A stretch of 64,000 bases of DNA from Bacteroidia bacterium (GTDB lineage Bacteria; Bacteroidota; Bacteroidia; J057): the NCBI GenBank assembly GCA_022760475.1, contig JALEFZ010000045.1, positions 1-64,000 of the forward strand, given 5' to 3'. Shown here in pieces: positions 3,451 through 7,332 of this stretch. Numbering within the stretch: position 1 is the first letter of the stretch; every line of letters starts with the position of its first letter. Made by a program: the position numbers and the translations under genes. Below the pieces are notes generated by a model. That model was not told where the DNA came from, ran no database searches, and saw only the letters and a program-made list of their open reading frames with translations.

Positions 3451-4389
3451 ATGAAAAACGCCTGGTTCCTTGTGGTAAACCCAGTAGCAGGTGGCGGCCT
3501 GAACCTCAACGAATGGAATGGGGTCATTGAAAATTTAGAAAGGCTTGGCATCTCGCATGAAGCAGCAACATCTGAAGCGAAAGAACATATTTACCACCTT
3601 GTTAAAGACGCAATTTACAGGGGATACAGAAATTTTCTTGCTGTAGGTGGAGATGGAACCTTACATGATGTGCTGAATGGTCTTTTAGACCAAGCTGAGG
3701 TCCCTTCTACTGCACTTACCATTACAAGTTTTCCTGTTGGCTCTGGCTGCGATTGGTCTAAAATGTACGGTATCAAAAGGAATGCCGAATCTGCCACCCA
3801 AATGCTCCTGGGAGGAAAATCTGTCCCCCAGGACATAGGCCTTGTTACCTATCAGAAGGATGGGACTGAAAAAAGCAGGTACTTTATCAATGTCGCAGGT
3901 TTGGGCTATGATGCCTTTGTCGTTGAGCAAACCAAAGATCAGGACAGGTCAGGAACTTGGGCACAGTTGGTGTACCTGACAACCGCACTCAACTGCTTGA
4001 GTGAGTATGAGCCTCAACACACACGCGTCTTTTCTTCAAATTTTGAGAAGGAGGGTCGAGCACTATTTACAAATGTAGGCCTGTGCAAGTATAGTGGGGG
4101 AGGCATGAGACTGGTTCCCAAAGCCATGCCACACGACGGCCTCTTTGATGTGACCTTCATGGAAGGTTTGAAATTACCCCAAGTCCTGCTCAACCTTATC
4201 AAACTTTATAATGGGAACCTCTATAAACACAAAAAAGCCCATCATTATCGTGCGGGTGTCGTAAATATCATTGGAAAGGAACCAATCCTCCTGGAGGCAG
4301 ACGGAGAACTTTTGGGGACTACCCCGGCGAGATTCGAACTCATTCCCGGGGCAATACAGGTAAGGGTTCCTTCGTCATACAAGGGATGA
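3451..4389 (+). CDS. Diacylglycerol/lipid kinase, YegS-DgkB family
   Basis: 312 residues, the usual size for the family. It starts with FLVVNPVAGGG (5-15) and carries the nucleotide loop VGGDGTLHDVLNGL at 65-78, the hallmark of the DAGK catalytic domain. Further family features are FPVGSGCDWSK, a C-terminal GLFDVTF region and LEADGELLGTTPARFEL. These enzymes phosphorylate diacylglycerol, sphingoid or other lipid alcohols at the membrane using ATP; the substrate cannot be told from sequence. It is followed 33 bases later by the GrpE-like gene and then the Hsp70 on the same strand, so the three may share a transcript. Confidence 0.9.
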   Translation: MKNAWFLVVNPVAGGGLNLNEWNGVIENLERLGISHEAATSEAKEHIYHLVKDAIYRGYRNFLAVGGDGTLHDVLNGLLDQAEVPSTALTITSFPVGSGCDWSKMYGIKRNAESATQMLLGGKSVPQDIGLVTYQKDGTEKSRYFINVAGLGYDAFVVEQTKDQDRSGTWAQLVYLTTALNCLSEYEPQHTRVFSSNFEKEGRALFTNVGLCKYSGGGMRLVPKAMPHDGLFDVTFMEGLKLPQVLLNLIKLYNGNLYKHKKAHHYRAGVVNIIGKEPILLEADGELLGTTPARFELIPGAIQVRVPSSYKG

Positions 4390-4422: not shown

Positions 4423-4764
4423 ATGAATATGTTAGATACCAAGTTGCTAAATTCATTCATTGAACTAGCCAATCAGCTTTTTGAAATCGAACACAAACTT
4501 GCAAAAATAAGTGGCACTGAGCGACTCAACAGGAACCTAAGAAGGATGAAGCAGGCACTTGAAAATGCCGGGATTCGTACCCATGACCCTTTGGGAGAAG
4601 AGTGGTCCGAAACCCGTACCGATTGTGAAGCCAGCATCAGTGGAGCATCCGTAGATAACCTGAAAATCGTTGAGGTGATCAAACCCATTCTCAGGTGGGA
4701 AGAAAATGGAGTTCAGCAAATCATCCAACGTGGTGTTGTGATCGTAGGCGAAAAACAAGAATAG
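4423..4764 (+). CDS. Small GrpE-like protein next to Hsp70
   Basis: 113 residues, not assignable to a named family with certainty. Residues 5-49 look like one long amphipathic helix; then comes IRTHDPLGEEW (51-61), TRTDCEASI (65-73) and a short beta-rich end (79-110: KIVEVIKPIL ... IIQRGVVIVGE). This is the order of a shortened GrpE: a helix, then a small beta-domain ending in a hydrophobic strand. The gene lies 72 bases upstream of an atypical Hsp70 on the same strand. GrpE proteins promote ADP release from Hsp70, so a dedicated exchange factor is a reasonable guess. Standard GrpE is longer and has a G-Y...RP signature that is missing here. The coding call is sound; the function is inferred. 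Confidence 0.7.
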   Translation: MNMLDTKLLNSFIELANQLFEIEHKLAKISGTERLNRNLRRMKQALENAGIRTHDPLGEEWSETRTDCEASISGASVDNLKIVEVIKPILRWEENGVQQIIQRGVVIVGEKQE

Positions 4765-4836
4765 GTAGTTGATAGCGCTTATCCTTCAAACATTGCCCAC
4801 AAATTCAAATCATTTTATTAGAACAAAAGAGAATTC

Positions 4837-7332
4837 ATGACCATAAATTTTGGAATAGACCTTGGAACGACCAATTCTGCCATTGCCAAATATGAGCAGG
4901 GAAAAGTCATTATTTTTAGAAATCCAATAGGACAAAAGCAAACCCTTCCCTCAGTCGTAGGAACCAGAAAGGGTAGGAGATTGGTGGGAGAAAAGGCCAG
5001 AGAATATTTGATGCAGGCCCCGGATCAGGTTGCAGCCTCCTTTAAAAGAAAAATGGGGACCTCAGAAAACTTTAAAGTTGGAGATGAGGTATTGAGCCCT
5101 GTGGAGCTTTCTTCATTTGTACTCAAGGAGCTGAAAAACTTTGTCCATAGCGGAGAGCAAGTAGAAGCGGCCATCATTACCATCCCGGCTTCTTTCGACA
5201 CGATACAATCAAATGCCACCAAGGAAGCAGGCTACATGGCTGGTTTTGATCAGGTAGTCCTCCTGCAGGAGCCGATTGCTGCCAGCCTTGCCTATGCCAA
5301 TCAGGATGACAAGTCAGATTTCCAGGATGGAAAATGGTTGGTCTATGACCTTGGAGGAGGAACCTTCGATGTGGCTTTGGTGAGCATCCAGGATGGAGAG
5401 ATGCGTGTCATCGACCACGAGGGGGATAACTTCCTGGGGGGAAATGACTTTGACAGGCAAATCGTAGAAGCCTTTGTCTTGCCTTATTTGGAGAGTCAGG
5501 GAACATTCAACAATCTGCTGGATCAGTCCAGGGCTTCCGATGGCAAATACAATCAATTGTACCAATCCCTGCTTTTAAAAGCCGAAAATGCCAAAATTGA
5601 ACTTTCAGTAGAACCCAGTGCGGAGATCGAATTCGAGACCAGAGATGATGCAGGTGAGATGATTGAAGGGTTTATTACCATCACCCGTGAGCAATTTGAT
5701 TCCATGTTGCAGCCCTTTGTAGGCAAAACGGTAGAGATGATTGCCCAGATGCTTGAAAGAAATAAGCTCAAGCCTAATGAATTAAACTTTGTTCTGATGG
5801 TCGGCGGTTCTACCTACATCCCTTACGTTCGAGAGAAAGTAGGAGAAGCCCTTCAAATTGAGGTGAATACTGAGGTCGACCCTACTACAGCGGTTGCAGC
5901 CGGTGCTGCTTACTATGCAGGTACCAAATCCCTCAAACGCAATGCTGAGTCTGCTTCTGAAACAGTAAAGGAAGATGAAAGTACGCCTAAAGTTAAGGTC
6001 AAAATGGCTTTCCAGAAGGCAACTCAGGAGGAGAAGGAATACTTCGCAGCGAGATTTGAAGGAGAGCTCTCCGGGCTTAGTTATCGAATCACCAGATTGG
6101 ATGGAGGGTTCGATTCAGGCCTAAAACCTCTTTCAGCTAAAATTTCCGAGTTCCTCCCTTTGTTGAAGGATGCCTACAATGAGTTTGAGCTGAAGATCTA
6201 TGACCATCACAACAATCAGGTTCAGTTCGCAATAGATCCTATTGGGATTACCCAGGGAAAATATGCTGTGGTAGGGCAGCCCCTTCCTCAGGACATTTGC
6301 ATGGAAATTGACGACGTGGAAAATGAAACTACAGTATTAGAGGTAGTATTTGAAAAAAATGCCATCCTGCCCCTTCGTAAGACCATTGTCAAGCAGATGA
6401 GCCGCACCATCGCCAAAGGTTCAGAGGAGCGCCTGACCATTTCTATTGTAGAAGGACCAAATACGGCTTTACCAGCTGCGACCCAACCTATAGGATTTAT
6501 CAGTATATCCGGAAAGGACTTGACACGAGACCTCGTAAGAGGGTCTGATGTGGAGGTCACCCTCGATATATCAGAATCACGAGACCTTAAAATTGCGGCA
6601 TATCTGATGATGACAGATCAGGAATTTGAAGATGTTTTTACACCTTCAGTCAGAAAGGTCAATGTATTCAGGTTGCGCGATGAGTTATTGGCCCTCGCCG
6701 AAAAGGTTCGTAAAGAAATTGCAGACCAGGAGAGTCAAGGCAATTATGAAGGTGCCCAAAATCTGGTGGATCTTGAATATGACATCCTTGCATTGGTAGA
6801 TAGGTCAAAGAAACTTCAGGAGAATGACTCAACTGATGAGAAGTTCCAGATTGAAGATGTCAAACGGAAATTGGCTCAAAAAGTAGACGAACTTACCCGA
6901 GATAAATTCATTATTGCAGTCAAAAACGAATACTTCGAGGCCAAAAGAGACATCGAATTTGTAATCGAACACTACGAAGCTCCCCAATCGGAGATTGATA
7001 AGTACAACAAGCTGCTCGAGGAAGAAAAGGTGATCCTGGCTACAAACTCTTCTTTGAGGATCAAAGATTTTATTGGACAAGTTCGAAGGCTCAATTTCCA
7101 GATCCGATGGAAGAATAGCAGGTACATCAAGGATTTGTTTGCCGGATTGTCTTACGGGCGCTTTGGGCCTTTTACAGATCCTAACAGAGCCAATAATCTC
7201 ATTGAAGAAGGAAATAGAGCCATTGCTGATGAAAACTATGATCAACTAAGGGTAGTCATCAATCAGCTCTTTGACCTCTTGCCACCTGTAAAGAGGAAGG
7301 ATATTCACCTTGGAGGTACTGGAATATCTTGA
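4837..7332 (+). CDS. Atypical Hsp70-family chaperone with an inserted domain
   Basis: 831 residues against about 640 for DnaK. The ATPase domain (1-365) is complete: GIDLGTTNS at 6-14, DLGGGTFD at 171-178, MVGGSTYIP at 321-329 and DPTTAVAAGAAYYAG at 348-362. DnaK's substrate domain should follow directly, but here about 100 residues of another, probably beta-rich, domain come first (385-480, with RITRLDGGFDSGL). A region like the DnaK substrate beta-sandwich follows at about 482-600 (RKTIVKQ ... LTISIVEG ... VEVTLDISESRDLKIAA), then a long charged helical tail (605-831). No DnaJ gene is near and the C-terminal EEVD-like tail is absent. It probably works as an ATP-driven chaperone on a special client set, with the gene upstream as partner. 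A strong terminator closes the unit. Confidence 0.9.
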   Translation: MTINFGIDLGTTNSAIAKYEQGKVIIFRNPIGQKQTLPSVVGTRKGRRLVGEKAREYLMQAPDQVAASFKRKMGTSENFKVGDEVLSPVELSSFVLKELKNFVHSGEQVEAAIITIPASFDTIQSNATKEAGYMAGFDQVVLLQEPIAASLAYANQDDKSDFQDGKWLVYDLGGGTFDVALVSIQDGEMRVIDHEGDNFLGGNDFDRQIVEAFVLPYLESQGTFNNLLDQSRASDGKYNQLYQSLLLKAENAKIELSVEPSAEIEFETRDDAGEMIEGFITITREQFDSMLQPFVGKTVEMIAQMLERNKLKPNELNFVLMVGGSTYIPYVREKVGEALQIEVNTEVDPTTAVAAGAAYYAGTKSLKRNAESASETVKEDESTPKVKVKMAFQKATQEEKEYFAARFEGELSGLSYRITRLDGGFDSGLKPLSAKISEFLPLLKDAYNEFELKIYDHHNNQVQFAIDPIGITQGKYAVVGQPLPQDICMEIDDVENETTVLEVVFEKNAILPLRKTIVKQMSRTIAKGSEERLTISIVEGPNTALPAATQPIGFISISGKDLTRDLVRGSDVEVTLDISESRDLKIAAYLMMTDQEFEDVFTPSVRKVNVFRLRDELLALAEKVRKEIADQESQGNYEGAQNLVDLEYDILALVDRSKKLQENDSTDEKFQIEDVKRKLAQKVDELTRDKFIIAVKNEYFEAKRDIEFVIEHYEAPQSEIDKYNKLLEEEKVILATNSSLRIKDFIGQVRRLNFQIRWKNSRYIKDLFAGLSYGRFGPFTDPNRANNLIEEGNRAIADENYDQLRVVINQLFDLLPPVKRKDIHLGGTGIS

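Follow-up and report, generated by a model that had tools for sequence, protein, structure and literature searches.

A small GrpE-like protein is encoded beside a divergent Hsp70 in Bacteroidota, and a third conserved family suggests a specialised chaperone system

Does the atypical Hsp70 encoded near the start of this stretch of Bacteroidia DNA have a GrpE-type partner of its own? An earlier note, made from the letters of the window (the whole stretch of 64,000 nucleotides analysed here), proposed as much because a 113-residue open reading frame, read as having the helix-then-beta order of GrpE, lies 72 bases upstream of the Hsp70 frame. The coordinates that it gave for both frames are correct, and they are listed with the other features in Table 1. 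We refer to the small protein as mini-GrpE. The source genome of the window comprises 6.9 Mb in 96 contigs and, going by its nearest relatives, is a Bacteroidota genome that probably falls near the Saprospiraceae.

Homologues of mini-GrpE with 34–55% identity occur in 10 relatives and at 80 public genome loci, which indicates that the frame is a real gene rather than a chance ORF. Specifically, a search of 100 genomes found mini-GrpE in 10 besides the source genome (11 including the window's own copy), and a species-level genome collection yielded the 80 loci, mostly from Chitinophagaceae, Saprospiraceae, Cytophagales and Flavobacteriaceae; 83 non-redundant mini-GrpE loci made up the set used for neighbourhood analysis. 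The spread is patchy, with mini-GrpE present in 13 of 295 genomes sampled across the class. As the earlier note had said, the protein is much shorter than GrpE, given that the open frames of canonical GrpE in the relatives span 169–255 aa. The mini-GrpE gene is apparently broken by an insertion in one genome (G170; L151:6733-8349) and has a stop codon within it in another (G473; L225); the module seems to be decaying in some lineages.

Table 1. Features of the mini-GrpE/Hsp70 locus and the third-family gene of the same genome
Feature	Position	Strand	Details
YegS/DagK-type lipid kinase	3451-4389	same strand as mini-GrpE	TIGR00147, 4e-44
mini-GrpE gene	4423..4764	+	113 aa; putative dedicated nucleotide exchange factor
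mini-GrpE layout	residues 3-26 and 33-48 (helices), 51-110 (beta-domain)		AlphaFold2 prediction
Divergent Hsp70	4837..7332	+	831 aa; PF00012, 1e-76
Hsp70 ATPase domain	4849..5931 (residues 5-365)	+	PF00012, 1e-76
V141-L-L-Q144-E-P-I147	5257..5277	+	occupies the positions of R167, N170 and T173, used for J-docking in DnaK
Stretch similar to the substrate-binding beta domain of Hsp70	6346..6618 (residues ~504-594)	+	profile-profile comparison
Third-family gene, outside the window	G000:C22:4404-5321		306 aa; unlinked to the pair

We examined whether mini-GrpE is related to GrpE by predicted structure and by sequence. AlphaFold2, run on an alignment of 68 members, gave a model with a pLDDT of 90.9 and a pTM of 0.81, and the GrpE-like fold anticipated in the earlier note was what the prediction returned. 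The beta-domain ends in a hydrophobic strand, as had been described, but the one long helix thought to precede it is two helices in the model. In a Foldseek search against the PDB, the 12 best matches were all GrpE or GrpEL1, with TM scores of up to 0.63; the E-values were modest (best 1.2e-2), the top probabilities were 0.98–1.00, and no other fold came close. VIA-align superposed mini-GrpE on E. coli GrpE (1dkg_B, residues 81–195) with a Z of 10.6 and an rmsd of 3.7 Å over 105 residues, compared with a Z of 5.7 for the best non-GrpE row, and the beta-domain keeps the GrpE topology along its full length. The alignment starts at GrpE residue 81, and the N-terminal ~80 residues of GrpE (the long paired helix and the disordered tail) are missing.

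At the level of sequence, PF01025 did not match mini-GrpE at E ≤ 10, the best E-value among the NCBIfam GrpE models was 0.048 (far below cut-off), and hmmsearch of the mini-GrpE family against PDB sequences did not find GrpE. The G-Y/R-P signature is absent, as the earlier note had observed: all 68 sequences have the invariant P88 and Q102 at the equivalent positions, G-Y having become K/R-P and R-(P/A)-A having become Q-K/R-A/G. Because a family-model match, the signature and the N-terminal half are all absent, mini-GrpE lies outside the GrpE family as presently defined. The direct profile-profile comparison with GrpE was weak (P 2e-4 with 11 sequences; P 1.8e-3 with 68), although its score exceeded those of 200 out of 200 shuffles; homology at the sequence level therefore depends on a bridge between the two families.

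Such a bridge is provided by a second subtype of the module (type II), found at four loci (L155, L156, L157 and L159) that encode membrane-anchored GrpE-like proteins of 212–313 residues. Their C-terminal ~110 residues resemble both mini-GrpE and GrpE, and the N-terminal part holds a hydrophobic segment and is coiled-coil-like; the accompanying Hsp70 is ~845 aa long. Run against a mixed set with a cut-off of E ≤ 1e-3, a profile of these four proteins (A7) detected 36 mini-GrpEs, 5 canonical GrpEs and none of 3,679 background ORFs, and across the 295 whole genomes it found the four type II proteins, two mini-GrpEs and one canonical GrpE (G026:C88). With hhalign, A7 matched mini-GrpE at P 9e-10 and GrpE at P 2.5e-6, far above shuffled profiles. 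Since this profile matches both families, we regard mini-GrpE as a distant homologue of GrpE or, taking the modelled structure together with the profiles, as a divergent GrpE relative with a predicted GrpE fold. It shares with GrpE (PF01025) the two helices and the beta-domain, homology through the bridging subfamily and an Hsp70 partner; it differs in its length of 113 aa, the lack of the long N-terminal helix and tail, the changed signature, the lack of a Pfam match and the position of its gene next to that of its Hsp70, in a host that keeps a normal GrpE.

The gene pairing proved to be widespread. In 80 of the 83 loci, the gene directly downstream of mini-GrpE, in the same orientation, encodes an Hsp70 of one ~830-residue subfamily; the gap between the two genes has a median of 16 nt and ranges from −41 to 441 in these 80 loci, so the pairing that the earlier note had read from a single locus recurs in other genomes. 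In the remaining three loci, the Hsp70 gene lies 4.5 kb away (one locus) or none is nearby (two loci). The source genome separately encodes an ordinary DnaK, DnaJ and GrpE, which makes the mini-GrpE/Hsp70 set an additional machine rather than the host's only one. We also noted a TerB-like gene directly or shortly 3′ of the Hsp70 gene in 12 type I loci, one of which (L067:5116-5607) was confirmed by the Pfam TerB model. Related Hsp70s of ~810 aa occur at L152, L153 and L154 (in G068, G253 and G201, respectively), each with a divergently oriented neighbour of ~525–580 aa, and mini-GrpE was not detected beside these three, which weighs against a dedicated partnership.

The Hsp70 itself is atypical, in agreement with the earlier description: the ATPase domain (residues 5–365) is readily recognised, and no convincing family match was found beyond it. 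The equivalents of DnaK D8, T11, K70, P143, E171 and T199 are conserved in the subfamily. R167 of DnaK has a role in J-docking (PMC7289447, PMC8215388): it forms a bond with D35 from the HPD motif of DnaJ, whose H33 touches L391 in the linker (reviewed in PMC8215388). In the Hsp70 subfamily, 69 of 72 members have V, L, F, I or Y in place of R167, 71 of 72 have Q in place of N170, and all 72 have I or V in place of T173; the DnaKs of the relatives have R, N and T at these three positions in 28 out of 28 cases. The position of DnaK R151 is S, A or T in the subfamily, and the hydrophobic interdomain linker motif of DnaK is absent. Further along the chain, residues ~504–594 aligned with the substrate-binding beta domain over 83 columns (P 7e-4), with a score of 34.8 compared with ≤19.6 in 30 shuffles; a search of the C-terminal half against PDB sequences gave no match, this region included.

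Clustering of the neighbourhoods revealed a further conserved gene located 5′ of mini-GrpE, 3′ of the Hsp70 gene or divergently from the pair. This third family is linked by profile in 55 of the 83 loci, and 12 further loci from Flavobacteriaceae have a possible relative divergently upstream, bringing the linked loci to 67 of 83. At the Flavobacterium loci L120–L130, one to four tandem genes of ~280 aa are divergent from the pair and may represent an expanded form of the third family, judging from a profile match of P 2.3e-3. In the genome studied here, the third-family gene lies elsewhere, unlinked to the pair (Table 1). When 15 genomes were searched, the third family was present in 11 out of 11 with mini-GrpE and in none of the four that lack it. 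Among the 295 class genomes, in counts that leave out marginal matches near the E-value limit, all 13 with mini-GrpE also encode the Hsp70 subfamily and the third family, and the third family occurs alone in one genome (G060). A hydrophobic segment was found in 47 of the 55 long members; the third protein of the source genome has one at its C terminus that falls below the threshold used for this family-wide count. A CFI-box C-terminal domain (NF041770) ends third-family proteins at one type I locus (L020:7700-9118) and one type II locus (L159:1110-2750), pointing to a common ancestry of the two module types in their third component too.

We then considered whether the third family could take the part of a J-protein. 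A J-domain consists of helices I, II, III and IV in this order, with an HPD loop. The AlphaFold2 model of the first 295 residues of one member (pLDDT 93.7) contains helices at residues 6–9 and 17–33, a beta-hairpin at 38–47, helices at 48–59 and 61–72 and then a long helical domain; it thus has the J-domain helix order, with a beta-hairpin at the position of the HPD loop. The family matched the J-domain profile at P 2.7e-3 through helices I and II only, a weak score that nevertheless exceeded those of 200 out of 200 shuffles. No HPD was found within the first 60 residues of any of 42 third-family sequences, and Pfam gave no J-domain match and nothing above cut-off for five representatives. The fold-search lists for the model contained no J-domain, the listed matches being dominated by the helical part, and comparison of the third protein with PDB sequences and folds returned generic helical matches only. 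Relative to DnaJ-type proteins, the third family is similar in the helix order of its model and in the weak match to helices I and II; it differs in having a beta-hairpin instead of HPD and an extended helical domain, with a membrane segment in many members and TPR or CFI-box domains in some. On the strength of the model and the profile, we consider a J-like nature plausible but unproven. A rewired interface would be expected to show just this pattern, with HPD lost from the third family and R167, N170 and T173 lost from the Hsp70 at the same time; complete loss of J-regulation would explain the pattern equally well.

Taken together, the fold and the gene pairing lead us to infer an exchange role for mini-GrpE, and the pair is probably central to a second, dedicated Hsp70 machine, in which both the exchange and the J-like roles are assigned by inference. 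In such a machine, mini-GrpE would open the ATPase lobes of its own Hsp70 and speed the release of ADP in place of the housekeeping GrpE. The third protein would most likely recruit the Hsp70 to membrane-located clients; less certainly, its HPD-less helical hairpin may dock on the Hsp70 surface without the usual J-docking residues and supply the J-like step that triggers hydrolysis. At type II loci, the GrpE-like protein carries the membrane segment instead. We put forward only tentatively the fuller reading of a parallel machine whose parts have all co-diverged, with exchange by mini-GrpE and with a membrane-anchored, J-like activator that would operate without R167, HPD or the linker.

That the third protein is not J-like at all, and is instead a membrane scaffold, a sensor or an Hsp70 client while the ATPase is stimulated by other means, is a serious possibility. 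It would account for HPD being found in none of 42 sequences, for the lack of Pfam matches above cut-off and for fold-search lists that hold no J-domain, as well as for the beta-hairpin in place of the HPD loop; it sits less easily with helices ordered and spaced as in a J-domain, with a profile score above all 200 shuffles, with the parallel loss of the HPD-docking residues from the Hsp70 and with one copy in which the J-like region is fused to TPR repeats.

Because the GrpE signature is replaced and the N-terminal half is missing, binding of mini-GrpE to the Hsp70 could differ from that of GrpE or be non-productive. A reading in which mini-GrpE has a GrpE fold but performs no exchange, and is instead a regulator or adaptor that, for example, keeps the Hsp70 in a single state or connects it with the third protein, strikes us as rather unlikely. 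The invariant P88 and Q102, the missing ~80 residues and a type II equivalent that is membrane anchored with a coiled coil would suit it, but GrpE topology is kept over the whole beta-domain, and the intact ATPase residues of the Hsp70 imply a working motor on which an exchange factor could act.

The nearest reported arrangement is that of the GAP1-N2 conflict loci of Actinobacteria and Firmicutes, which contain HSP70-GrpE-DnaJ sets and GTPases (Kaur et al. 2020, PMC7159879). There too, an additional Hsp70 is grouped in a single neighbourhood with a GrpE and a J component of its own, but the loci belong to other phyla and have named GrpE and DnaJ domains, and no recurring GTPase gene appeared among the clustered neighbours here. 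Their existence is one reason to ask whether our module serves in conflict or phage defence instead of housekeeping or envelope protein quality control. Its patchy occurrence (13 of 295 class genomes) points the same way, as does a copy from Pseudomonas hygromyciniae, whose conjugative plasmid pSDM007 carries the three genes next to one another (L220:6821-11801), the J-like region of the third protein being preceded there by fused TPR-like repeats at the N terminus; this contiguity of the genes argues for a transferable functional unit. The plasmid module is located near phosphoadenosine phosphosulfate reductase family genes. A kinase-AAA fusion of a type II locus also matches the PADLOC kinase and IetA models. 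We nonetheless judge a conflict role unlikely, given that PADLOC models recognised none of the three core proteins of type I, that there was no match among 50,697 phage records and that the neighbours look ordinary both in the window and at the unlinked third gene. Regarding the type II loci themselves, three of the four have a conserved partner gene upstream, whose product starts with NPYRIAGIL in L156 and L159; at these two loci, genes for kinase-type, TerB-like and DUF6804-type proteins follow, the kinase being a Pkinase-AAA fusion in L159. We found no description of type II modules.

By far the least probable reading is the three-gene unit with the preceding lipid kinase that the earlier note had also raised: the kinase gene, in the same orientation as that of mini-GrpE, ends 33 bases before it, and this order recurs in one relative, but the kinase adjoins the pair in only 2 of the 83 loci (the window and L066), and it was rejected as a member on that count.

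The occurrence of the three genes together across many Bacteroidota and on a plasmid suggests that the mini-GrpE/Hsp70 pair and the third family form a specialised chaperone system, for which we found no description in the open-access literature, although one may exist elsewhere. Second, specialised Hsp70s beside DnaK are known from HscA and HscC, which, according to a review, have specialised J-domain partners and need no exchange factor, the latter having been explained by their few clients (PMC8215388). The Hsp70 described here differs from both in having a dedicated GrpE-type partner and in being without the J-docking residues. It combines specialisation and a retained partner of the GrpE type with the loss of the residues that J-proteins use to act on DnaK. 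Should the third family be the activator, the system would be a natural case in which J-protein/Hsp70 coupling has been rebuilt without HPD, and several protein families that are unnamed in current libraries would gain a function.
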